In this document: positions 3,239 through 64,000 of the stretch, one piece after another
Layout: each line of letters starts with the position of its first letter
How positions within the stretch are numbered: position 1 is the stretch's first letter
From: Bryoerythrophyllum caledonicum
Taxonomy: Eukaryota; Streptophyta; Bryopsida; Pottiales; Pottiaceae
Length of the DNA stretch: 64,000 nucleotides
Assembly (NCBI GenBank): GCA_963971425.1
Contig: OZ020518.1
Location: 2,430,263 to 2,494,262, forward strand
Direction of reading: 5' to 3'
The notes under the pieces: generated by a model
What the model was told of the DNA's origin: nothing
What the model saw: the letters and a program-made list of their open reading frames with translations, nothing else
Database searches by the model: none
Made by a program: the position numbers and the translations under genes

Positions 3239-4495
3239 TTACGCGACGAGGATGTCTGCGCTCGTGAACCAGTCCAAGCTCTCGGTCTGCTCCGGACCGA
3301 AGGCGAGGTCCTCTTCAAGAAAATCAAATCCGGCGGAAAAGTCGAGCATGTCCGCGCCGTCTGTGCCTTCACAGCCAGGAAAGTCGAACAAGAAGTCGTC
3401 CGAGAGGAAAACTTCCCCGAGGTCGCACGCAGGACTGTCCGACTCGGAGTGAGAGCTCTCAGAGTCGGAAGAACTCTCAGACGTTCCTGCGAAGAACGTT
3501 TCGGCGACATCGCTAGAGGACGTCGGTTCGCACGCCGTGAGGCTGGAACACGGCGACGGCGAGCCGGAGGCAGAAGGCGAGCACATAAAATACTCGTCAC
3601 TCAGATTCTCGAACAAGACGTCGTCGTTCAGGAGGTCGTCCTCAATGTGAGCGCCGAACGTCCGCATTTGCTCTTCCTCGGCGTCAATGCGCTCTACCTC
3701 CACCGCGCACAGAGGCGAAGACGAAGTGACAGCAGCACCAGCCTCGCAGCGGGCGGGCGCAACCTCCTTCTTCGCCGGCGCGGCTTCTTTCTTCACGTCC
3801 TTCGCGAGCACCTCGCCAGATTGCTCCGCGTCACTGAAATTCGTGTGCGCCTGCGGCCCGCGAATCTCCCGCGCGGCTCTATCATAGGCCTGCGCAGCCT
3901 GCTCGGCCGTGTCGTACGTCCCGAGCCACAGCCGCACGCCCTTACTCGGGTCGCGAATCTCCGCCGCCCACTTCCCCCAGGGCCGTTGCCTCACGCCTCT
4001 GTACTTATGAGGCTTCCCGCCCGCCACCGGCGCCACAACAGGAGCTCGCTTCGCCACCGCCCTGCTCGCCTTCGCCTTCTCACCCTTCTTCTCCACCACG
4101 GTTTTCGTCTTCGGCTGCTCATAGAAGCTCGCAGTCTCCTCATCCTCCACAGGACTCGCGTAGCTCACGGAGCACTGCATTACCACGCTCTGCACCTCCG
4201 GCTCGTCGTCCAGCTCGCTGTCCACCCCCTCGTTCTCCTCCTCCTCCACAACCTCCTCCCCTGCCGCCATCTCCACATGAATCTCATGCACGAGCCGCCG
4301 CTGCGAATTCCTCCTCCCATCCTCCTCGTCGCTCGACGAGTCCGTCGCGTCCGGGTCCGTACATATCACTCGCACTCTCTTCGAACTCACCTGCCTCACT
4401 CTCCTCCTCTCCCTCACGCACTCCTCGTCCGACGAAGAAGAGCTACAATACTCCCGCTTCACCGCCATCACATTACTCTTCCGCTTACCCTGCAT
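3239..4495 (-). CDS. AP2/ERF transcription factor, cytokinin response factor (CRF) type
   Basis: A single uninterrupted frame encodes 418 residues. Residues about 40-59 form the CRF (N-terminal) domain, with the signature [16 protein letters not shown]. Residues about 164-220 are one AP2/ERF DNA-binding domain ([19 protein letters not shown]...[20 protein letters not shown]), with the Ala and Asp residues typical of the ERF rather than the DREB class. N-terminal serine/acidic runs and a C-terminal half rich in Asp, Glu, Ser and Phe look like activation regions. In the family these nuclear proteins bind GCC-box-like DNA and act in cytokinin and development responses downstream of two-component signalling. 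The coding region is GC-rich compared with the surrounding DNA. The start is the first ATG after the TATA box; a second in-frame Met at residue 10 is an alternative. The exact CRF clade cannot be assigned here. Confidence 0.9.
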
Positions 4496-4734
4496 TCTGG
4501 AAGAAGAAAAAAAAAACCACCCTCCTCAACGTCTAGATCAAATTCTTCATTCCTCTCGTAGCGCGTCTTCTAGCAATAGTTCTTCCTCCCTCTCACTCGC
4601 TGCTGCTGGCTGCTGTCGCGCTTCTTTGATGTTGGAGGGGACACAAGACAGCAGAGCTGGTCTGTGGCGCACTTGCAGTGATGATGAGCGTGGGTGGGCG
4701 GAGTGGAAGAGTGGCGGCCAGTCTTTCCGTGCGC

Positions 4735-49104: not shown

Positions 49105-51044
49105 TAAATCCCACTTTGGGTTAAAAGAAAACAAGTAACAAAACAAAAGCCAAACGGCTAACCACCAAGGCCACAAACGGCCCAACCAGCAGAATGCCAG
49201 CGAAGGGGAGGGACCCCAAAAAGAAACCAGGGAAAACCCAGTCTAAAAGAAAAAAACAGGTCCAAAGAAAAACCTCAGACCTCGAAAGGAAAAAGTAACA
49301 AAACAGAACAGTCCAAGACTACCCTGCCAAATACAATGAGCTCGAAAACAAACAAACTAAGACTAATCTCCACGTCCATTACACCAGAAATCAGCTTGCG
49401 ACTTGAGCTCCAAAGAATCCTGAATATCTTCAGGCAGATTGACCGCATCAACTCCGAGACCACTTGAAGCTTGATCAAGATTAACATTCCGCTCCACCTC
49501 CGCGTCATGAACAGGATTATCCTGAACGAGGAGGCCCTCGTAATTATTCAAAACCAACTCCACCAACAAATCATCAAAAAGCTCCTCCGTACTTGAAAAA
49601 GAGCTAGTATTGCTCTTATCACGAATGGAGGACGAAGAAGATGACACAAATCCTTGAGAGAGGGGAGTAAAGGAGATGGAATCAGTTTCCGATAACATAT
49701 CGAAATCCGTACTATCCTCCACTTCAACCGGTTTGTTGAAGGCTCTATACTTGTTCGCCAACTCTCTTGACAAGAAATAAGGACTTGGCGCTAATTGCCA
49801 ATTCATCGATGATCCTTGAGTCTTCAGGAAAACTCCCGCATGGCTCCAAACAGAAATGAAAGAACGCTCTTTGGCTCGTTGCTTGGATGACTTTGGGAAT
49901 CTAGCATAACGAGTAAGCTCCTTCCAGGCCCCCATGCCAGATTGAATCGTTAGTTGCCAGGCTTTAAAGATGACCATCCCAAGATGGAATTGTTCATCAT
50001 GCAGGTCATGTCCCACCTTGACACACCAAATACTCCAGATAATACAAGCCCTGAGAATATCCCATGGTTTTTCCCATGTCTCAACCACCGTACGATCAGG
50101 AAGTACTGGAATCCCCAATGGAACCACAGGATCCAATGGAGGCCCCAAACCAGTCAATGTTCCAAACCAAGTAGAGGGTGGTGGAGGAAGACAGGCTCTA
50201 AGCCTTACATCTCTCAATTTTGACCACACATCCTTGACTGACTCACATTCCCAGAATGCATGTAGAGGGGTTTCACTAGTACCCAACGAGCAAAGGTTAC
50301 ACAAACCATCACTCCCCAATCTACGCCTCCAGTCTGCCAATGGCAAACCTCCTTGACAAGTTAACCACATCATCACAGCAACTCTCCGGGGATGCCAAGC
50401 ATGCCATAAATTCTTATAAAAAGAATCTCGTTGCACAGAGTTATATCCCAACTCTTGTAACTTCTTCTCAAATGGGGCAGGGGTCGAAATGGAATCCAGA
50501 ATAATTCTGTATCCCATTTTCGTAGTATAACCATAAAAATTAGTCGCATTCAATTTGCCCCTCTTCCCCCAAGTCCATTCTTTTGGATCAAAGTTAAGGG
50601 TTTTAACTTTTCCATCCCTTACTGTCCATAACGATTCTCCTTCTTGTGCCGTCACAGGTCCATTAATATCCAGAACTTTACCTTTACAATCCTTTCTAAC
50701 AACTCTTGCAGCCGTTAGATTCGAATCGGGTAACCTGAATAAATGTTGATGAAGCAATTCTAAAAGCTCCAATTCTCCTGTGTGTACATACACATGAGCT
50801 CTCAAAATACCTCCAATCATCTGAGAGACTCTATAATATTTTGTCAAGGAGCCCGCAATATCATCCATTAACCACGAACCTTCCTTCACTTCAGTAGAAA
50901 CAAAGGGAATACTGCGTAACAGTTCATCCCTAATTCGAGCAAGATTCAGCGACCCTGTAAGCTCTCGAATTTCTCTGGATGACATCAATTCTTGTCTTCC
51001 CTCGTGCCAGATATCGCGAACCCTCATGAGTCCTCTGTCCAGCC
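49105..51044 (-). mobile_element. 5'-truncated LINE inserted in the initiator tRNA gene
   Basis: This interval of 1940 bp lies between perfect 18-bp direct repeats. It carries the C-terminal part of a LINE ORF2 on the minus strand and lacks endonuclease and reverse transcriptase, the normal result of incomplete target-primed reverse transcription. The 3' end (low coordinate) reads ..CCAAAGTGGGATTTA on the minus strand, without a clear poly-A tail, which is unusual for a plant L1. Confidence 0.85.
49363..51044 (-). pseudogene. LINE ORF2 C-terminal fragment with zinc-binding RVT domain
   Basis: One open frame covers the fragment and runs on into the reverse strand of the tRNA by chance (to 51153). 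Its middle carries the reverse-transcriptase-associated zinc-binding (zf-RVT) pattern: YKNLWHAWHPRRVAVMMWL, CNLC, then TPLHAFWECESVKDVW (Cys-x2-Cys...His-x4-Cys). The C-terminal third is Ser- and acid-rich (SSSSSSIRDKSNTSS). It lacks the catalytic domains, so it cannot act alone. The absence of stops over about 560 codons suggests a fairly recent insertion. Confidence 0.8.
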
Positions 51045-51062
51045 TAAGCATCAGAGTGGCGC
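51045..51062. repeat. Target-site duplication, tRNA-side copy
   Basis: TAAGCATCAGAGTGGCGC, identical to 49087-49104. It includes the first 13 bases of the intact tRNA. Confidence 0.9.
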
Positions 51063-51121
51063 AGCGGAAGCGTGGTGGGCCCATAACCCACAGGTCCGAG
51101 GATCGGAACCTCGCTCTGATA
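51050..51121 (+). tRNA. Initiator tRNA-Met (CAU)
   Basis: It is 72 nt. The acceptor stem pairs ATCAGAG with CTCTGAT, keeping the initiator A1-U72 pair. The D region is TGGCGCAGCGG (box A) and the anticodon stem-loop is TGGGCCCATAACCCA, with anticodon CAT in the initiator context. The T arm is CGAGG-ATCGGAA-CCTCG, with A at position 54 instead of T, another initiator hallmark. It has no intron and no encoded CCA. Its native 5' flank was displaced by the LINE, so its transcription may be altered. The first T4 run downstream is near 51176. Confidence 0.95.
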
Positions 51122-51181
51122 AAACTAGAGACGATAGCTTCCTTGTGATGCATAACTTTCTTCTTCCTCGGACAATATTTT

Positions 51182-51589
51182 AATCCCTAAACTTGAAGAG
51201 TGTTTTTTTTTATAAAATTTAGTGAGAATAGGTATATGGGTTATCTTTTTGGGGATGTTTTTCTTTCTTGTTTTGGACTTACAGTGGGAAAGTTATGGTG
51301 CTTCAAACATTAACACCTTGAGTTTGGGGCAGTTGGATGAGGTACAGTCAGACCTCTTTACATGTTATTGCTCTGGAGCGGAAAAACTCATAACACTTAT
51401 TAAAAATAACATTTATCAATTCTCATCCAATTTGTTCAATTATTTTTATTGCTTTGCACTATATTTTACTGTCGCCATTCATATTTACTACATAATTTCT
51501 CCGCATTTTCCAACTTAAACACTTATAGAGGTGAAGTTAACAAGAGAGCGAGCGGAAAATGTTATAATACTTAACATATAACACTTCAT
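51182..51589. other. Gene-free gap between tRNA and LINE fragment
   Basis: AT-rich sequence with no recognised gene. Confidence 0.4.
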
Positions 51590-52538
51590 AACAAGTAAAC
51601 ACATTATCTAATGTATACCTATCCCTCGCAAAACCCGTTTGAGAGGACCTAATCCATCTCGGTAAGTTATTTTGTATCCTATTAAAATATGTTTTAGCCA
51701 TTAGTTTATATGTTGAATTGAGGACTCAAATAGGTGTAAAATTAGACAATTGAACCTTCGGGCCACCCTTAGGTATCAATGTATGAAAATCTCTATTAAG
51801 TTCTGGTCGCAACTCACCTAAACCAAAAACCTCTTGAATCAATTTCACCAAATCCTTCTCTACCTTCGGCCATGCTTCATGAAACCATTCCGTATGAATC
51901 TAGTCCAAACCAGTTGTCTTCTGCTTTGGCATGTCCATGGCTGCACTTTTAACTTCTTCATCCGTGAAGGGTCTCGTGATTGAACCATTTTGCCACACTG
52001 AAACTTGTGTGGGTACATTCTTTAGACACTCTTCTCTCCCTAAAACATTCACTTCAACTGTAGAGTCATTTGTATAGAGCGTTTCATAATATTGTTGAAC
52101 ATACGCTGTTATTTCTTCCTTCGATCGAAGGGACTCTCCTCCATGCAACAATTCCTTAATGACAGTCTTTTTCTTAATTTCCTTATGAAAATTAAAAAAC
52201 TTTACCGAGCATCTATCACCATATTTAAACCAATTTGCACCTTTCGCAAATTGTTTCCTCTCAAGCTTGGTCATCCGTATCTCTTCTAATGCAGCCTGAG
52301 CTCTGTTAAGATGCTCCCAAACACTTAAATCGTATCAATCAGCTTGTAAAGCTTCTACAACCAATTTAATCTCAACAAATTGATTATCATACTGCTCTCT
52401 TCCTGCCTTTTTCTGCTTACAGGTGATGTCATTGCTCTTGTCTTTAGTTACCTTCAAGGTCTCTACAACCTTCATGCCTTGTGATGATGCTTGATTGCTT
52501 TCCATTGTATCTTTCCATGTCTTAGTCAGTTCATCCAA
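51590..52538 (-). pseudogene. L1-type LINE ORF2 fragment (pre-RT and RT N-terminal part)
   Basis: From 52538 downward the minus strand encodes the region between endonuclease and reverse transcriptase typical of plant L1: ANWFKYGDRCSVKFFNFHKE, then EEITAYVQQYYETLYTND, then KQKTTGLD followed by a stop where the family has G. The reading continues past the stop with RT motifs (PKVEKDLVKLIQEVF, LIPKGG, STYKLMAKTYFNRI, SSQTGFARDRYTLDNVF). It ends near 51600 before the catalytic aspartates. It may or may not belong to the same family as the tRNA insertion. Confidence 0.75.
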
Positions 52539-53123: not shown

Positions 53124-55206
53124 ATGAGCTTTGCAACACGACGCACCCCTGTGACAAGGAAAAGAGCAGCCTCGAAAACCCAGATTGTCCCCACGGTTCC
53201 TCAGCCAAGTGCTCCATCCCTAGAACCACCCCCGAAGTGCTCAAACACAAGGAAGAAGACAAGTTCACGGCCCGCCGAGAAAGCAAGCGACAAGCTCACT
53301 GACCAAGAACAGAAGAAGCAACCAAAGAAAAATCCCCCCCGCTTACTTCTGCTCCAGGACGAAGACACAGACTTTGACTTGGGGTCGGGCCTCCCTACTT
53401 GGTCGGTCTACAAACGCCCCCTACCAAGCCACAAGTACCCAAAGGCGACAGACCTGAGTGGCGGTACGTGTGTTGTTACCTCCCCCTCGCAAATGGCGAG
53501 CAGCACACCCCCCCTAGCTTTAGTAACCCTTAGAGACCTCCCTGACCCTCATACACTACTCTCCCAGGAACACATGGCGGTAGACATGGAGGTGGAGAGT
53601 ACCTCAGAGAGCTCCAAGAGGATTACAGAAGCCCAGACTAAAACCCCTTCGATTGAGGACGCACCAACCCCTTCAAAGAAAGCAAGAGGTAACTTCCCCC
53701 CCAGTAGAAGTCTCTACCCCTAACCTCTCCTCTTTTCACTTTTGGTTGCGCTTCTCCACCATAGAGAAGCTTGCCATAGACGTAGAGCAATAACCTCTAT
53801 TTAGTAGAGAAAGTATCATAGATATGATCACAAGAGGAGTGCCCAAGGAAGAGGCGGAAGTAACTTTTGGAGTTGAGGTGACTTATTCGAGGATCCCACA
53901 ACTATTGTATCCCTCAGTACGGCAAGACAACATTGCAGAGCAACACTATAATCTGACACATGTACCATTTGACATTCCCACCTCCCATGTGACTGGCCTT
54001 TCCCTTGACTTCTATGTGGCAATTCATTTTGAATTGCCACAACACAACATGTATCATGATGACTTGAAGATACTCACGATTTCTAGACTTGAGCACATGG
54101 GGATCCCTCTTGGCACTAGCTTAATGGACCCCGTTGCAGTCCTATGCAAAGGGGTCAAAAAGCATGGCATGGACATATGGGCAGGGATAATTAAGCTCCA
54201 CCTCCTCAGGCCAAAGGTGGATGCTATATCTCTACTTAGAGGCACCATGTACTTCATATTACAATTAGACCCTCTAGATCCAACCTCCATGGGGAAGGTA
54301 TGTAAGACCTTCCACGTAGTAGCACGGAAGAACTTATCAGTGAGGATCAAAAGTCACAATCTCAAGGGTATTGCGGCACACGCACTCTACCAGGACATAG
54401 TTGCGAACGGATTCACTAGGAAATTGGAATTTGAAATAGTAGACGTACAGAAGGTGCCAGGAGAGGCACACGCCTTCATTGTTGCCCCAACCCCACAACA
54501 GGCCAAGAAATTCGAACTTCACCAAATCACTACACACCAAGAAGTGATTCCAGCAAGGGCTACTAGTTCTGGAGGATTTTCAACCACTGATCAGGCAAAA
54601 AGGGATGCTCTAATGGTCACACTTTCACAACTCCCCATCCTTATGGGTGTTGAGGAAACCTCGGCCATCATCAACAAGGTGTTTGAAGAAAAGAATGTTA
54701 TATCCATATGGTTCCACAAGCAGGAAGGGGGGAAGCACAATGGCAGTGCTCATGTGCAACTTGTCAATCCTATTGTCTACAGGAAGTTCCTAAACAAGAC
54801 ATTCACAGTTGGTAGTCACCATGTAGAAATTGCCCCTCACCGAAGAAGCCTTGAAGGCATTGCACCCCCCACCCCCTCCCTGGTCGAGAAATGGGGTTTC
54901 AATGACATCAACAAGGCTCTAGTCAACACCGTTGCTTCAATTCAGGTCACACCCGCCCCTGCCGGCATCACCAGGTCGAAAATGACAGCCATCATGGAAG
55001 CAGGTAACCAAAGACTACGCAAGGAGCTCTCTACTCTTCGCGAAGACATCATCAAGGAAACCCGAGAGTATACCAACAATGCCACCGATGAGCTCCGCAC
55101 CAAACTCACCAATGTGGAGAGTTTGATGGCCTCCACATTGCTCGTATTGCAAGACATCTCGAGGTCCAAGCTTCCCGCCCCAAGAGATCCTACAAACGTG
55201 GATTGA
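53124..55206 (+). pseudogene. Retrotransposon ORF1-like protein, broken once
   Basis: Two frames (53124-53723 and 53710-55206) join after a frameshift near 53700. The second carries one stop (TAA near 53791) ahead of its long open part, which starts at 53824. The first part is basic and Pro/Ser-rich (RKRAASKT, RPAEKASDKL). The long part (460 residues) has no family I recognise. A segment VISIWFHKQEGGKHNGSAHV..LVNPIVYRKFLNKTFTVGSHHVEI has the alternating pattern of an RRM-like fold, and the C-terminus (residues about 390-450, RLRKELSTLREDIIKETREY) looks coiled-coil. Nucleic-acid-binding ORF1 proteins of non-LTR elements have such parts. It stands just upstream of the large LINE on the same strand but has ordinary base composition, so it may belong to a different element. 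Confidence 0.5.
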
Positions 55207-56819
55207 CCACGGGCCACAGACAAAGTTTCCACCACCATGGAACTTTATGGTGGATTGGTAATTTGACCTTCTCTCCATCCATCACCTCTACTCATATTTG
55301 TCCTTCTATCACCACCATAGTTGTCATTGTGACTATTGTCATACCCTCATCTCAACTCCTCTCTCCATATTTGCCCCACAAGTTATCTATGTCGCTTATA
55401 CGTCCTCACATGTCCCTTGAAATCCCCCCCCCCCTTCTAACACACTACAATAGGCCCCCCTCAATAGCTCCACCTTGCATCTTAGGTGCACCTACCCCCG
55501 CATTTCTATCCACTTACCCCCACAATACCTACTCTATTCTTTGCACCCCGTTGCTAGAAATCTACCTCATAGATACCCCTCCCCCCAACCCCCCTCAGTA
55601 CTTAGTAACCTTCCCATCCCTCACCATAGTCTTCTTCTTCACTAGTGTTCTTGAAAAAAATGCATGCATCACACACATACATAGATGCAAGTCACGGACC
55701 TACAAACTCCCATACACTCTATGGCTCCTTGTTTCCTCTTATTATCTTTGGAATTTTATTCCTAATACATGCACACTTTGTCCACACAAGTGTATATGGA
55801 ACACATACCTCCTTCGGGAAACCACATACAAACCACACTCAACACTAAAGATTGCATACCTACTATCTACAAAGGGGAACTTTACTCTCCCAAAAAACAC
55901 ATTGTACCTCCACAAACATACTCGAAACACACATCCCACCCCCCGGGTAAACACACACACTACATACACATCTCACAAACATACTTATCCACCCCAACTC
56001 CCTATACCCGAAGCAACACATATCTCACATCAAACACCTACTAATATATACCAACATACTGCTCAATGCCTACAAAACCATGCACCTTTACATACACCAT
56101 GCACATCAATCCCTATCATCCACCCTAACACCAAAAAATATCACCACCCCCCTTACCTACGTAAACTCCCCTAACTCACAACAATTCCTTACCCACAATC
56201 CCTGGAGAAAAACATACAATTACCGGGTCACAACACTCACTCCATATTCTAGTAAACATGCCAATAGAAATATTGACACAAACACCCATATTGTATACCC
56301 ATATTGTATTGAAAAAATAATAATAATAAATAATAATAATAATAATAATAATAAATAATAATAATAATAATAATAAATAATAATAAATATGAATACTATA
56401 TCAGATATTGTGTATACAATACATATACAAGTACAAATACATATACATACAATGTACTCGATAAAATTACTGACTTCTATACAAATATAAATACGAATAT
56501 AAACACCAGAATAGATATTGAAATACATACTAATACACACATCAAAACAAACACTAGTATAAATTCCAACATATATACTAACACAACTGCATATAAAAAT
56601 GACTTAAATACCCCCCCAAATACCAACATAAACCCATATACAAATATTCTTACACATAACAATCACATACACACATGGCCAAACACAAACACCAAAATAT
56701 ACAAACAAACATACTCACACCTATACATCATTAAAACAAAAACAACTATGCAAATAAACACATGGACAAAAAAAAAAGTGAATGACAAAAACAATTGCAC
56801 CCACTATAAAAATGAATAA
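55207..56819 (+). other. C/A-rich, G-poor spacer before ORF2
   Basis: From about 55260 the plus strand becomes very poor in G. A frame of about 323 codons (55203-56174) is low-complexity Pro/His/Thr sequence without ATG or domain. It is either a degraded N-terminus of the retrotransposon polyprotein or not coding. Confidence 0.35.
56318..56393. repeat. (AAT)n microsatellite
   Basis: ATAATAATA units with occasional AAATAAT interruptions. It lies in the G-poor spacer. Confidence 0.9.
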
Positions 56820-57740
56820 CAAAAAACTCATTACCCACATACAAATACAAACACCCACCTACCCCCAAACAACAAAAAATATAATACCATAACAAAGCCT
56901 CAAAAAATTATACATACAACAAAAACTTTAAAATACAGTACTAAACATATACACCACAAACTCCTACTACTTCTAGGAGGAGACATAGAAACCAACCTGG
57001 GACCCATGCCTAATATACTAAAAAGACACCCTACATCACATAAGAAAAATGCCAAAATATACTTCATACCTAACACCATAAAATTACAACCGGAATATGG
57101 ACACATTGCAAAATCCTTTGCACCTTTGTTAAAAAACACACATACATTACACCACACACATAACACTATACACCCAAACATTGCCCAATACATACAACAA
57201 AAAAATATCCATCCACCACCCCACATTCTATATGCCCTAGTAGTCACTACCCATCCACACATAGATAAATGTAACCATCTCGTAAATCCACAAAATGTGA
57301 ACACAATTACATGGACCAATACACTTCTACAAACTTTACTAAACTTACAAAACCCATCAGAACGACACATACACACTCCACACCCTAATATAAAGTTTCT
57401 TGAAGACAACCAAAATATTATTAACCATGAGGACTCAATACATAAGGAACTATATGACTTTGCACATAGTCAAATCATACCTCTCCCAAATGAAACAATA
57501 AAACTAAAATTCCCTTACCTCTCTAACAATCTCATCAATGAATCACTAAAATATTTAGACCCTATACCAGAATACATCCACCCACCTACACCACCTCCCT
57601 ACATCCCTCCACAAAATCAAAACAATAGATCAAATCAAGAAAATACATACATAATCACATATAATACCTCCTCTCTAAACACTGCCCTTCCTCTTTTCCA
57701 AATTTTGTCATGCACACAGACACACCACCAACCCTTATAG
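56820..57740 (+). pseudogene. Retrotransposon polyprotein N-terminus with 2A-like motif
   Basis: The open frame from the stop at 56817 lacks an ATG before the motif KLLLLLGGDIETNLGP, which is immediately followed by Met. Peptides of the form LLL.GD(V/I)E.NPGP near the start of LINE proteins cause ribosomal skipping in other elements. Here the critical NPGP is NLGP, so activity is doubtful. The following 240 residues are His/Asn/Pro/Thr-rich without known domain, and end in the first endonuclease motif (IITYNTSSLN at 57651) before a frameshift near 57705. Confidence 0.55.
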
Positions 57741-59041
57741 TTATACAAGAAACAAAATTATCTGCCACAAAATCTACAAAATATACACAAAATATATTTC
57801 ATGACTATAAACTCATCTTCAACAATACACATGCACTTACTAGATGCATTCAACAACGGAGACCATACACACCGGACTGCGGTGGCCTCCTTACACTAAC
57901 ACACAAAAAATACGCCTTCCCGGGCAACATCAACAAAATTCCTACCCCAATGAACATATCACCTTACATTCAAATAATCAAAAGTACTCATCACCCACTA
58001 CAACCATGGTTAATCTTTCACATGTACATGCCATCTCATCCCGAAGATACTAGATTTATCATAGACATACAAAACACTATTACATCTCAAATTAATAATA
58101 ACCCCAATCACACATACCTATTATGTGGAGACTTCAACAGAGACATAGCATTAATTGGCCGCCAAAATGGAAATCATAACACCCCTCCTCAAACCATTGA
58201 TTACCAATGGCGTCGCTTCACAGAAAACTTAAACTTCACTTACATCAATACTAATACACAATTCTCTAGACAAGGTGGCTATAATTATAGTGATTGGAGT
58301 CTAATAGATGGATTCTATATAAATACAATCAACAATATACAATACACCTCTACAACAAACAAAGATGTTATTCTCAACCCGGACCACTCTCCAATACAAT
58401 TGCACATCCCAAATAACACATTAATTAGTAGAACTCCTACAATCCTAAGCAATGACACTATATGCATACTCAACCCCATTCCAAAAGACAATATAGAAAA
58501 ATTCAACACAAAATTCTTTGAAGAAAATTCCATACAAATAGACTCACTCATAAACATTCTTGAAAATAACAACCAACTATCACAAATACAATGGCAAGAA
58601 GCATGCCACACCCTAGACAAACTCATCAATGCAATCTCCGACACACTAGAACAAACTTGTAGAGGCCACTCAGTACCTCAAATGACAAACAGAACTTCTC
58701 AACAAGGCGGTTATTTACCCCGCAAACTTTCTAAAACTTGGAAACAACACCTAACCACATACCATGTTATACGAAAAACCATTAGAATTGTAAAAAAAAA
58801 CCCTCAATGGCGTAACCACCCCATATGCAATGAACTACTAACTCTACAATACACCCAAATCCCTACCCTGCTGCCTCCGGATCTACCCTACAATACATGG
58901 ATAAAAGATATCGCATTAATTGCAAAAATTGCCATCATACAAGCCCGGAAAGTAACCTCAAAATACGCCAAAGATAACATTAAAAAAGCCATCTCAAAAT
59001 ATAGACAACTACATGAAATTAACCCAAAAAAAATTAACTAA
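57639..59041 (+). pseudogene. Apurinic-type (APE) endonuclease domain
   Basis: Motifs of the exonuclease-endonuclease-phosphatase fold appear in order: TYNTSSLN, then (after a frameshift) IVIQETKL with the catalytic Glu, HMYMPS, LLCGDFNRDI, SLIDGFYI and NPDHSPIQL with the catalytic Asp-His. In LINEs this domain nicks the target to prime reverse transcription. The C-terminal part (58450-59041) is a linker with a tryptophan-containing CRGHSVPQMT..PRKLSKTWK segment, ending at a TAA in frame with the sequence beyond. Confidence 0.8.
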
Positions 59042-60757
59042 AAAATCTTTAAAAACCTTGAATCCCCACCAATGGATTGTATCATGGATCAATATAATAA
59101 TATCCTAACTAGCCCCGAAGACATTGCAAATGAAATATTCAACCAACAAACAAAAATCAACAGACCAACGGTACCAACATGTAATTACCAACCACAACAT
59201 CCAATAGAATGTACATGTGCAGTACGCCAATACCCATGGCATGACCTGGATGGATATACCCTTGACAAATGGGGCAACCAGAAATTCCAACACATAAATA
59301 CTTTAACAGAGCCACATACGACACATGCCTTCAAAATCTTGGTAACAACAAAGCCCCAGGCCCAGATCGCATACCAAACTCAATACTCAAAAACATGCCC
59401 CCAAGATTTCATAAATTATTATTCCTATTCTTCTCTCACTGCTATAAACAAAAACAAATACCGACCTCATGGACATCAAGTGCAACAATTTTACTGTACA
59501 AAAAGGCAACCCGTCTATACTACCCAACCATAGGCCGATTGCACTAGCTAACACAATATATAAACTCTTTACTAGTACACTCACCTCTATACTATCCTCA
59601 TATGGTGAAAAATTCAAAATCCTACATGATAGTCAAGAAGGATTCGGAGCAGAGAGAAGTACCGATCGACAAATACAAACTATAATAGCCGCACTAGAAG
59701 ACGCAAGATTTACAAACCAAGATATATACATATTATACGTTGACTTTAAAAATGCCTTTGGCTGAATAGACCATGCCCGACTACTAGCAATAATGATGGA
59801 TCTTGGTTACCCAAAAGATGCAACTACACTTGTTGGAAACATCTACTCTCAATCATCTACTTACTATACAGGTGAACACTTTGGGAAAAACAAAACCTAT
59901 ACCCATTCAAAGAGGAATTATACAAGGGGAGACTCTTAGCCCATACCTATTCAATATATTCTTAGAACCACTACTCAGATGGCTAGAACGAGGCAACAAT
60001 GGATATACTTTTGGCACATCACGAGTTACAATAAACTCTGCCACCTACGCGGATGACCTCGCCACCATAACTAACAAAATTAAATCTATCCAAATACAAC
60101 TCAATAAAATTGATAGATATTGCAAATGGACCGGTATGGGCGTAGGTGTCCCAAAATGCGCGGCTACCGGATGCCCAAACAAATCCAAACTGAACCCTAC
60201 CACGTTCAAAGCCCTAATGCAAACCTCTAACATCAATTACCGCAATCAACCAATCCCTATACTACACAAAAGTGAACCATACATATACCTAGGTACAAAT
60301 CTTGTTCCCTCACTAAAATGGAAAATCCAAATTCACACTACAACCACAAAACTCATCAAACAATGCAAAGAACTAACAACATGTCTGGCCACCATGAAAC
60401 AAAAAATAAAAATGGTTGATACTGTACTACGCCCAGGTGTGGCATACAGCTTCTACGGTGTACCATACTCTATGCCAGCTATCAAAAAACTTGATCTAAA
60501 AATAATAGCCATACAAAAAACTATATGTGGACTCCCAAAATGTATGTCAAATGCGATAACCCAACTCCCACATAACCTATTTGGGCTTGAAGCTTTCTCC
60601 CTCAAAATCGCATATCTCTGATGTATAGGTGAACAACTACAAAATGCTTTAAACGATAAAGATAGACTTGGAAAAATATATAATGGATTAACTCATTATG
60701 TCCTAGCCCAATACGGTGGTGCCGAAAACATACCCAAAATTTTAAAAAAGTGACTGC
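59042..60757 (+). pseudogene. Reverse transcriptase domain, multiply broken
   Basis: RT blocks occur in order across three frames: NKAPGPDRIPNSIL, IPTSWTSSATILLYKK, NHRPIALANTIYKLF, DSQEGFGAERSTDRQI, LYVDFKNAFG (first catalytic Asp) followed by a TGA, IQRGIIQGETLSPYLFNIF, and SATYADDLA with the catalytic YADD at 60046-60057. A thumb-like region (YIYLGTNLVPSLKW, VLRPGVAYSFYG) follows. Frameshifts near 59300, 59490 and 59850 and stops at 59763, 60619 and 60751 disable it. Confidence 0.85.
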
Positions 60758-61888
60758 ATGAGATCACCAATAACACGAACATTCTTCTTATTAAAACACA
60801 TAGCTAAAGTCCACCTTAAAAGTACGCTCCCAAACTTCCTCATTAACCCTACATCACTAGAAATACTATGGCGCCAAGAAACACTAAATCACAACACACT
60901 CAATGCCCAACTCTACCAAAAACTTCTACAAAAACTCCTCTTAAAAAATATTTTTGAACTAAACCAAATCACTTTACCTAACGGCACACACATCATGAAC
61001 AAGGATGACTTCAAAGCCTACCACTTCACCCCATCTAAATTATTAAAAAGTGCCCTAAATGTTGTTAAACAACTATTTTGCCATCCAACATGCCCCACCA
61101 CATGTCATACCCCTTGTAACATACACCCATACTCCTATATACTTCAAGATACATCCATCACCATCATCAATAGCATCACCCCAAGAAATATCCCCCCACC
61201 AATCAATCCCCCTAAGCCCCCACATCCATACTACCCCCGTCCCCCAACATACATCCCCAAAAACCCTACCACATATTCCATTATTAACATCATACACCAT
61301 AAACATATCCAACACACAGACACAAATAACATACAAAATACCTACGCAAAATATTTATACCAATGGCAACACAATGATAAGACATACAACAACTGGCTTT
61401 TCCAAATAGACATTTTTCCACGACACGACACCAATACCTCCACACATAACATTGACAAATTAAAACAATACTACCAAAAAATTCAAAACAAAATTTACTC
61501 GGATATCATCCTAGTCCATCACCCCCAAGAACAATTCTTAGACTCAAGATCCATAACACCACCCATAATTATTCCACTCTTAAACATCTATACAATAGAA
61601 TGCAATCCCGAAAATGATATCCTTACATTCTCAAACACAATTAAAATACATAACAATCAAGCACATCTATATGAAGAAAATGGTCGACATTTGCACACTA
61701 TCCCCGTTACTCGACTCCAATGGCTATGGAATCAATACAATACAAAACTACAAACTCCTACGAACATGGAACCAACGACCCAATCCTTTGAAACCGAATT
61801 AATTTGGCTATACCAAAGGTTTAAATACCGAATACCAAAAAATGACCCCCTAAAAATGCGCAATACACAATACCCACACCCATTTTAG
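60758..61888 (+). pseudogene. Linker region between RT and downstream domains
   Basis: A frame of 376 codons, rich in Asn, Thr, Pro, His and Ile. A cluster CHPTCPTTCHTPCN (near 61079-61120) has metal-binding-like spacing but no known family. The rest is not recognised. Its frame differs from those on both sides, so it is part of the broken polyprotein. Confidence 0.5.
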
Positions 61889-62457
61889 ACTCACTAATCT
61901 CATCCTTTAACATTGAACAATCATACTTTTCTTCCCCGGTCACATGTTCTACCAAACTAAAAAAATTCTACTCACCCTATGAAAGAGACAAAATATTTGG
62001 ATCCTTGGGAAAGGCCTTTGACTACAAATGGATCGGTAACGGCATAGCTCACCCCCACAACGAGAAGGAAATGGAACAAGCAATACATTGGGCTCGACTT
62101 GCCGCCAAACACAATCCAAACAACACAAATACAATCATCATCACACTGAACAACAACTGGTACCAAAACAACAACCAACACTCAAACCCATTTCCAAACT
62201 CCCATATCATTGCATTATTTGAGGCAGACTCAATACCATACAAAGAACCTACTATCCCATCCGAGCTAAGAAAACCACGAATCGAGCCATCTACATTACA
62301 AATACTATGTGTCCATCATAAAAAACAAACCCTTGGCACCCTAGAACAACTTGCCAAACATACCTCCATAACAGACAATTTAAACATACACAAATTATAC
62401 ACAAAATTGGCCCCACCGACACCTACACAAACCCCCGTAAACCGAAGTAAAAACTAG
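61870..62457 (+). pseudogene. Unrecognised domain between RT and RNase H
   Basis: This is a well-preserved stretch in the same frame as the RNase H. It includes FSSPVTCSTKLKKFYSPYER, then DKIFGSLGKAFDYKW, HPHNEKEMEQAIHWARLAAK, TIIITLNNNWYQ, SHIIALFEADSIPYKEPTIP and PSTLQILCVHHK. Alternating hydrophobic strands and a helix rich in Ala suggest a folded domain, and it ends at a TAG that does not change frame. I cannot name the family. Dualen is reported to carry a cysteine protease, but no protease motif is evident here. Confidence 0.5.
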
Positions 62458-63000
62458 TCAAAACTAAACTATGTCAACAATACACTAAACTACTTTATCA
62501 CACCGCCCCCTCTCCCAAACTATCCAACTCATACCACACCAAAATTTAATCCCACACATAGTTATTACACCGATGGCTCCTTTAAACCACCAGAACAAAT
62601 TAGCCCGGGAACTTGGCGCAGAGAAAAAGTTGGCTATGGCATCTATAACTCTACCAAGGAAATTAAGCTAGCCAAAAGACTCCATGGACTACAAAATATA
62701 CTTAGAGCAGAACTCATGGCCATTCACAAAACACTACAAATCATCACAACAAAATACAATAATGAATCCGCACATATATTCACCGATTGTATAAATGCAC
62801 TTTACCTACTAAACATTCAAATAACACACCCTACTCTTCACAATAGCCACCCCAACCAAACCATATTAATATCAATGGTCCAAACGTTATAAAACCGAAC
62901 ACAAATCACAACCCTCCGCAAAGTGCAAGCCCATGCCAATATTGATGGCAACGAACAAGCATATAAAGTAGCAAAAGAAGGCCGAGAGAAAACACACGAA
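62458..63000 (+). pseudogene. RNase H domain
   Basis: The catalytic acids are readable in one frame: YTDGSF (Asp, codon 62572), RAELMAI (Glu, 62710), IFTDCINAL (Asp, 62785) and the final block VQAHANIDGNEQAYKVAKEG with His at 62932. In most family members the last block is GNExAD; here the Asp is Tyr, so the fourth catalytic carboxylate appears lost. A TAA at 62890 breaks the frame without shifting it. The domain removes RNA from RNA-DNA hybrids during element copying. Confidence 0.8.
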
Positions 63001-64000
63001 AAGGCCAAAGACCCACACGAACATGCCCATGCTACTCCATACTACTTTCAAAAAGAAGACTGGCCTTCCAAAGAGGATACCCCTGACAAAGGCCCGATTA
63101 GATTTCTGGGCAAATATCTCAAAAAACAAGACCTCTACAACAACCTTGATACAATATTAGAAAATATTCCTAACATAGAAAAATGGACTAACAATAACAA
63201 CATAGACAATGAACTCTCTACAAATTTTTGGAAAAATCCCATCATTTCAGATTCACAAATAATATGCCTCATCAAATTCCGTACTGGTCAATATATGGGA
63301 AACGCTCGCAAACAACTCTTCTTTGGAATAGAAAGATTCCCATCCATAAGATGCCCCATATGCCCTTCAACGGACCCCGACACATGGCTTCATGTTCTAC
63401 TCAAATGCCAAAACCACCACATACACTCCCTTATTGTTAAAAGACATAATAAAGCGGTATGGGAAGTTTGAAAACTAATCACCTCCTACAACAAATCGAG
63501 ATGTTTTATACTAATGAACGCCGACACCTTTAATAACAATCCACAAGAAAATACGGTCCCTCCTTGGCTACTCCCATGCTCATGTGAGACTCAAAGATGT
63601 CACTGCAATGCTAGGCTCAAACCGGACATCCTTTGTGTTAGAGGTTTACCATATAATGACCCACCACCCGATCACATTAACCAAGACTACACCATTCAAT
63701 TCATTGAATTCACATATTGCAAGGATAGATTCTCCACGAAAACAATTCAAAACAAAATAGATAAATACCAACCCCTCATTGACGACATCATAGCCCTTGG
63801 ATGGAATGTGGACCCCCTTATTGATATCACGTCTGGCGCTCGTGCCACCACCTTTATCCCATCTATGAAAACTCTAGAAGATACCTTCAAAATACCCATT
63901 GAAAAAATTAAAAACACCTTTAAAAACATTAACACCATCGCTACTCAATATGCCATGTCCATCTTACTATATAAACGCAAAATTGAAAACAACCAAGCCC
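63001..64000 (+). pseudogene. Cys/His knuckle and restriction-like endonuclease candidate
   Basis: One frame (with a TGA at 63469) contains CPICPSTDPDTWLHVLLKC (Cys-x2-Cys...His-x4-Cys), as found just before the C-terminal nuclease of R2-group LINEs. It then has CSCETQRCHCNARLKPDILC, giving Pro-Asp at 63622-63627. IQFIEFTYCKDR follows, with Glu at 63706, then KIDKY and ALGWNVDPLIDITSGAR. The order PD, about 25 residues, (I/V)xExT, then basic K..KY is that of the PD-(D/E)xK nuclease of R2-type retrotransposons. The frame runs open to the window end. Family-level assignment needs a profile search. Confidence 0.6.

Follow-up and report, generated by a model that had tools for sequence, protein, structure and literature searches.

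The window analyzed here, by which we mean the whole 64,000-nt stretch of contig OZ020518.1, ends in the remains of a long interspersed nuclear element (LINE). The question raised by this locus is whether one such element carries two kinds of endonuclease together with RNase H, as do the Dualen/RandI elements of Chlamydomonas. The original prediction, made from the sequence alone, had read between 56820 and 64000 one broken coding unit with an apurinic/apyrimidinic endonuclease (APE), a reverse transcriptase (RT) with YADD, an unknown domain, RNase H, a Cys/His knuckle and a PD...E..K candidate nuclease. We found all of these, in that order. We consider it probable that a dual-endonuclease LINE with two open reading frames (ORFs) was very recently active in this plant, and that the window holds a decayed but almost complete copy of it. 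The term "Dualen-like", as applied to it, would describe an architecture and not a line of descent. The parts of the window copy are as follows.

53657-55206, + strand: ORF1 of an element of this kind; its best-preserved open frame is 53794-55206, with 71% amino acid identity over 504 residues to the ORF1 of copies with a 2809-codon frame (2809 class)
56421-56936, + strand: stretch rich in A and C that precedes the 2A-like motif and where family homology begins (homology to copies L062 and L032/L034/L058)
56937-57014, + strand: 2A-like (StopGo) peptide, LLLLLGGDIETNLGP in the window copy, GDIETNPGP in intact copies A and B
57630-58423, + strand: APE (EEP) endonuclease, frame-shifted, with QETK, GDFN, LIDG and PDHSP legible (Pfam, motifs)
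59272-60732, + strand: RT with YADD and thumb, with frame shifts and stops (Pfam, tree of intact copies)
61061-61183, + strand: Cys/His-rich segment, CHPTCPTTCHTPC, part of a Cys/Pro-rich stretch (translation)
61259-61438, + strand: possible chromodomain-like segment, weak (Pfam Chromo, below cut-off)
61694-62442, + strand: PCIF1-like domain (fold of cap N6A methyltransferases), in which AHPHNE occupies the NPPF site (Pfam, alignment)
62530-63012, + strand: RNase H, of the D-E-D-H-D type in intact copies (Pfam, motifs)
63343-63447, + strand: R2-like CCHC zinc knuckle CX2CX8HX4C, then RHN (motif, Smith-Waterman alignment)
63448-64000, + strand: candidate R2-style restriction-like endonuclease (RLE), KPD...E...K..KY, in-frame stop at ~63469 (motif order, constraint)

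The decayed copy fills the window from ~56.5 to 64.0 kb, with several in-frame stops and several frame shifts, and its ORF2 runs from the 2A-like peptide through APE, RT, an insert and RNase H to an R2-style CCHC-RHN knuckle and a PD..E..K nuclease. Homology to the family begins at 56421 when compared with L062, or at 56527 when compared with copy B and with L032/L034/L058; the position of the family stop codon lies ~25 bases beyond the end of the window, and a (TTC)n tail closes the copy at ~64313. The span originally predicted was therefore right as to the element and too narrow as to its limits, and ORF1 at 53657-55206 has to be added to it. A target site duplication of the window copy was looked for and not found. 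An (AAT)n microsatellite (56316-56395) lies just 5′ of the first family homology.

The reading is carried by copies elsewhere in the genome. A 29-base pattern for the 3′ end of the family, with at most two mismatches, occurred 3463 times (1753 + 1710) in the 437-Mb host assembly, whereas the reversed pattern used as a control occurred 0 times, so the family is not a chance assemblage. In searches with the RT and with the CCHC/RLE module we scored 141 of 5513 and 132 of 9210 first-look candidates, respectively, the remaining candidates not being confirmed matches, and the matches were spread over many chromosomes and many places. We read two copies in full; each has a single open frame, of 3087 codons in A and 3757 codons in B, with the same order of domains as the window copy. 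Sequence past 64000, which the original prediction had proposed to include, supplied the tail. A chance joining of unrelated pieces is ruled out by this identical order in intact copies. Among the 132 scored CCHC/RLE matches, 39 shared an identical top score; 33 lay in the 3087-codon frame and 14 others in the 2809-codon frame, which is accompanied by ORF1. Over 2.3 kb of the 5′ region, copy A and three other members of the 3087 class, at different places, shared 99.96-100% identity. That so many intact, nearly identical copies occur elsewhere in the genome suggests that the family jumped very recently.

Comparison of copies A and B showed that the ORF is maintained by purifying selection, which covers the APE, the RT, the RNase H and the CCHC and PD..E..K module alike. 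The ratio of non-synonymous to synonymous substitution rates (dN/dS) was 0.04-0.16 in 11 of the 12 segments, both nucleases included: 0.12 in the 2A region, 0.09 in the APE, 0.16 in the linker, 0.07 in the RT, 0.05 after the RT, 0.06 in the chromo-like segment (60 codons), 0.09 in the second linker, 0.14 in the PCIF1-like domain, 0.11 in RNase H, 0.04 in the third linker and 0.07 in CCHC+RLE. The sole segment without evidence of constraint was the 66-codon Cys/Pro-rich stretch, where a ratio of 1.84 depends on one silent change and is not judgeable. Against the more distant copy L078, copy A gave 0.09 for the RLE (dS 0.96) and 0.02 for the CCHC.

The domains common to LINEs could be named from profiles. 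In the window the Pfam matches were weak and under cut-off for the APE-type endonuclease (E 0.013-0.018), 3.8e-5 and 4.5e-13 for pieces of the RT, and 5e-5, just under cut-off, for RNase H. In intact copies RVT_1 (3.2e-26) and RNase_H (2.9e-12 and 9.2e-13) were over cut-off, and Exo_endo_phos was just over it in copy B (1.6e-5); the 5′ part of copy A had no Pfam match in the scan of intact copies. Legible in both A and B are the functional motifs of the APE (TWN, QETK, GDFN, LIDG and SDHSP) and of RNase H (D-E-D-H-D). Profile searches of the kind originally proposed recovered the RT and RNase H families in intact copies and the APE family in copy B, and returned nothing significant for an RLE.

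When compared with PDB chains, the intact RT matched three R2 chains at 1e-30 to 1e-29 and human L1 chains at 1e-20 to 5e-20. A maximum-likelihood tree of 12 rows was then read, with the element, three R2, human L1, five host L1 and L076, a 1624-codon LINE frame on a 5-kb contig (PUOC01000032.1) binned in a sediment metagenome-assembled genome. The element and L076 formed one clade (100/99), the three R2 a second (100/99) and human L1 with the five host L1 a third (100/98), the element, L076 and R2 standing jointly opposite the L1 branch. In approximately unbiased (AU) tests, joining the element to host L1 was rejected (8.5e-9), as was joining the element and L076 to host L1 (0.0024), to human L1 (0.0023) or to two of the three R2 (0.005). 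Placement firmly within L1, which the original prediction had named as evidence to the contrary, was not seen, the RT falling outside the L1 rows tested; an RT inside the L1 clade is excluded by those rows and by the AU test with host L1. R2 proper was likewise rejected, the three R2 rows grouping together to the exclusion of the element. Nor is an RLE the only endonuclease here, as an APE is present.

The second nuclease is a candidate RLE. On the translation of the window copy we counted KPD at ~63619-63627, E at ~63706 and K at ~63754 and ~63763. Three distinct R2 C-termini all had RHN followed by KPD, and two of the three had the same zinc spacing. The two RHN/KPD...E...K..KY patterns, which were picked after viewing both families, appeared in 0 and 13 of 200,000 shuffles, and in Smith-Waterman alignment with R2Bm 0 of 2000 shuffles scored as well, the similarity covering only the knuckle and RHN stretch. 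Across 14 distinct copies the R and H of RHN, the K and D of KPD, the E, both K and the Y never varied, and the P was kept in 13; two zinc ligands, the H and the last C, were likewise kept in 14/14. The assignment is made on motif order and constraint because profile comparison was not significant and phmmer found no R2 chain; in this reading the C-terminus would adopt a PD-(D/E)XK fold.

Upstream of ORF2, the ORF at 53794-55206 is repeated in the genome, with 90 matches scored among 3635 candidates. A single 5′ region of the 2809 class was fetched; it has a 1229-codon frame, and it is the last 504 codons of this frame that match the window ORF. Coordinates compared by hand showed the ORF1 match ending exactly 7410 bp before the CCHC/RLE match in 14/14 2809-class copies, a fixed spacing on which we reject the idea that the 53.8-kb ORF belongs to some unrelated element. 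Its C-terminal stretch resembles a coiled coil, through weak Pfam coiled-coil matches only. Before the APE, the GDIETNPGP of A and B matches the core 2A motif (D/G/C/N)(V/I)ExNPGP as given in the abstract of PMC12846837. Further 2A-like modules lie upstream, one in A and two in B, none an exact fit to the core motif. At about residues 700-950 of the copy B frame (L034+L035), between the first and second 2A-like modules, we counted by eye ~5 tandem repeats of a unit of ~41 residues (NRKCFLRNSKIRDGKCTKLVMGISYNKNTNVKNIAINSST).

The unknown domain of the original prediction contains a PCIF1_WW match (3.7e-9 in the window by Pfam; 8e-12 and 1.5e-10, over cut-off, in intact copies), covering PF12237 positions 8-146 of 176. 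In the assembly PF12237 gave 2614 first-look candidates, and all 150 that were scored were over cut-off. NPPF is the catalytic motif of PCIF1 methyltransferases. It is absent at its site in the copies read, which have AHPHNE or a near variant (AHPYNE, AHPHNV, AYPHNE), and in L076, which has CHPIYA. In phmmer the vertebrate PCIF1 chains matched weakly (E 0.094-0.9), in an alignment that crosses the NPPF site, here HPHN. The domain thus resembles the cap-adenosine N6 methyltransferase PCIF1/CAPAM in its PF12237 match and in a weak alignment through the catalytic region, and differs in having HPHN for NPPF and in sitting within a LINE polyprotein. The RT of L076 is 37% identical to that of the element and is followed by a PCIF1_WW-like stretch without NPPF (9.4e-6, below the curated cut-off at 25.8 vs 31.1 bits; 3e-7 to the element's domain by tblastn). 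L076 also has a PHD-like Cys/His stretch, seen by eye, and neither end of its contig extends far enough to reveal an APE, RNase H or RLE. The bin is labelled Clostridiales, probably a case of eukaryotic contamination of a GTDB genome. An RT joined to a PCIF1-like domain with a changed motif appears to be common to these two distant LINEs. Between RT and PCIF1-like domain, the Pfam Chromo matches (E 0.057, 0.12 and 0.022) were all under cut-off, and a chromodomain is a possibility only. Neither the 2A-like peptide nor the PCIF1-like domain was part of the original prediction, nor were ORF1 and the large family with its intact members.

Integration was examined at young insertions. By eye, three insertions of the 3087 class (A, C2, C1b) are flanked by target site duplications of 11-12 bp. 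From 22 loci (L050-L069, L038, L039) 21 insertions were counted, L059 having no recognisable 3′ end, and their tails were (TTC)3-6. Insertions were not confined to one fixed site. The 3′ flank lay in DNA of the same family in 15 of the 21, in antisense in 13 of these 15, compared with 0 of 20 evenly spaced 300-bp control stretches on five chromosomes (Fisher 8.6e-7). A strict count, in which L064 and L065 are affected by sharing one flank and L066 and L069 by matching only the upstream extension of copy B, gave 13/20 (Fisher 6.4e-6). Two flank matches are short, at 65 bases for L050 (none at a stricter E-value) and 71 bases for L067, and the family reference (element A, 11.6 kb from copy B and the 5′ region of the 2809 class) may include some non-element sequence at its ends. 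Young copies thus often land in other copies, mostly in antisense; candidate causes are chromatin, target sequence or a T/G-rich strand. A hairpin conserved at the 3′ end was considered and rejected, since the fold is strong in copy B alone (z -5.1, against -1.0 for A and 0.14 for the window copy). A terminal hairpin with a TTCG loop precedes (TTC)n at the 3′ ends of all three.

Put together, these parts suggest a cycle in which ORF1, probably an RNA-binding or coiled-coil chaperone, would coat the RNA, and a 2A-like StopGo peptide would free the leader of the ORF2 polyprotein. The APE would nick the first strand, the RT would begin target-primed reverse transcription at the (TTC)n-tailed 3′ end, and RNase H would clear the template. 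The C-terminal CCHC-RLE could then bind the branched intermediate and cut or resolve the second strand, leaving the 11-12 bp duplications; R2 protein is described in part of PMC6895275 as acting on open 4-way junctions for the second strand. The PCIF1-like domain has probably lost its methyltransferase chemistry and may serve as a module binding RNA, perhaps its cap, a reader rather than a writer; the chromo-like segment may have a role of its own. Of all this, what is directly observed is the architecture, the selection, the recent copying, the tails, the landing sites and the duplications at three insertions. A fuller scenario, possible in our view and offered tentatively, is that of a living land-plant lineage of dual-endonuclease LINEs that would need both nucleases, one for entry and the other for second-strand resolution, that would have kept a PCIF1 fold without the methyltransferase motif as a reader of RNA 5′ ends since before its split from the sediment-eukaryote LINE, and that would home, mostly in antisense, into its own copies.

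Several observations weigh against a two-ORF, dual-endonuclease LINE as set out above. The RLE was not recovered by hhalign of the C-terminus with a three-sequence R2 RLE profile (probability 2%), by hmmsearch with that profile, which did not rank the C-terminus over shuffles, or by a phmmer search of PDB with the window C-terminus, which found no R2 chain. The two remaining R2 chains gave no significant Smith-Waterman alignment (134/2000 and 861/2000 shuffles as good), and the first and second C of the knuckle were kept in 13/14 and 11/14 distinct copies. As to the RT, two R2Bm chains matched it at 3.5e-16 and 6e-15, below human L1; the tree had neither an outgroup nor Dualen, I, Jockey, R1 or RTE rows, and R2Bm was flagged in it for odd composition. 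Copy A, of the more numerous intact class, has no recognisable ORF1, and its first in-frame ATG is codon 477, so the start of ORF2 is not fixed. Finally, both flanks were read for four insertions; among them C3 is without a target site duplication, the 5′ junction of C1b carries extra bases, and A is missing its first bases.

Three other explanations were weighed with these points in view. The C-terminal nuclease might retain its fold as an inactive, DNA-binding remnant of an RLE, with the APE alone doing the cutting. The second acidic residue is indeed an E, 27 residues past the KPD aspartate and much further than in R2 chains, and a passage of PMC6895275 gives duplications of 10-20 bp as usual for APE LINEs too. 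Yet E is permitted in PD-(D/E)XK, and the candidate catalytic residues are kept in the 14 distinct copies except for one P, so that we think a dead nuclease rather unlikely. A second explanation is an I-group LINE, with a C-terminal CCHC in addition to APE, RT and RNase H, whose tail would only resemble an RLE. I-group elements do have an APE (passage of PMC3636483) and RNase H (passage of PMC4640811), and the RLE lacks a significant profile match. Against this stand RHN and KPD...E...K..KY, which come after the knuckle in the R2 manner (in patterns chosen post hoc), and purifying selection on a module whose residues are kept; we give this explanation little credence.

A plant L1 that acquired extra domains is hardly tenable. 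L1 does occur in this genome, but the clade of six L1 rows excludes the element and the AU test rejects its union with host L1; moreover, the RNase H of the element has the catalytic H, where the archaeal-like RNase H of plant L1 has R (passage of PMC4640811). The original prediction is partly supported: purifying selection acts on a single LINE ORF that joins APE, RT and RNase H to an R2-style CCHC and PD..E..K module, and the RLE profile match that it had asked for was not obtained.

Among known systems, Dualen/RandI of Chlamydomonas and relatives is close: passages of PMC4640811 and PMC3636483 place an APE and an RLE together in these elements, which also have RT and RNase H. In our element the APE is supported by Pfam in copy B, the RLE by motif order, similarity to the R2Bm knuckle and selection, without a significant profile match, and RNase H lies in the same ORF by Pfam. 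A PCIF1-like domain and 2A-like modules, present here, go unmentioned for Dualen in the same passages. The host of this element looks like a land plant, and the (TTC)n tail of the element differs from the (ATT)n or (CTTT)n of the Chlamydomonas reinhardtii SINEs (short interspersed nuclear elements) that share RandI tails, as described in part of PMC3747384. Scans of viral and genome contigs turned up no Dualen sequence. The 2005 Dualen abstract reportedly places a cysteine protease in Dualen, a feature outside the definition given by the passages above; Pfam scans of copies A and B and of the C-terminal part of ORF1 gave no protease family. The R2 group shares the C-terminal order of CCHC, RHN and KPD as well as RT similarity, but the element falls outside the R2 rows and its insertions have no single fixed site. 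To our knowledge, R2 has neither an APE nor RNase H. Nested insertion into existing copies is also a habit of the Zepp/ZeppL LINEs of green algae, which a passage of PMC8226300 describes as L1 with one cluster per chromosome; the RT of our element is not L1, its matches occupy many chromosomes and places, and its nesting, where examined, is mostly antisense. Protein, alignment and DNA-pattern scans of viral contigs gave no relatives except a mammal-like L1 (L075), which was not used. L075 is an IMG/VR contig that by eye joins this L1 to phage-like genes, a chimeric assembly or contamination.

Genes in the rest of the window and in the assembly bear on the host. An open frame at 3239-4525 (- strand) has an AP2 domain (9.4e-16) and by eye is cytokinin response factor-like. 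SAM_LFY (LEAFY) is matched in the assembly, at best with 1.3e-27, and in none of 14 control genomes; seven matches were over cut-off, one strong and six weak, possibly from a repeated LEAFY-like fragment. Genes of the LEAFY and AP2 types fit a land plant or a close relative. A decayed host L1 occupies 49363-51779 (- strand), with zf-RVT in 49363-51186 and a weak RT match at 51546-51779; within this L1-derived stretch ARAGORN called a tRNA-Met (CAT) at 51050-51121 (+ strand), which could be a false call.

A 2015 survey, in a passage of PMC4438587, has Dualen from green algae only, and a 2025 paper, in a passage of PMC12747079, has LINE/Dualen annotations in cryptophytes also. Titles and abstract beginnings among the literature matches listed, which do not extend to the repeat tables of genome papers, contained neither a land-plant Dualen nor PCIF1 in a LINE. 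Surveys of adenine methyltransferases may mention transposon-borne PCIF1. The position of Dualen is quoted, in a passage of PMC4640811, as a hint of how LINEs exchanged endonuclease types. With its many intact copies, so abundant a family in what is probably a land plant would make the role of each nuclease directly testable. It also ties a methyltransferase fold with an altered active-site motif to reverse transcription, and provides a case of self-nesting in a LINE other than L1.

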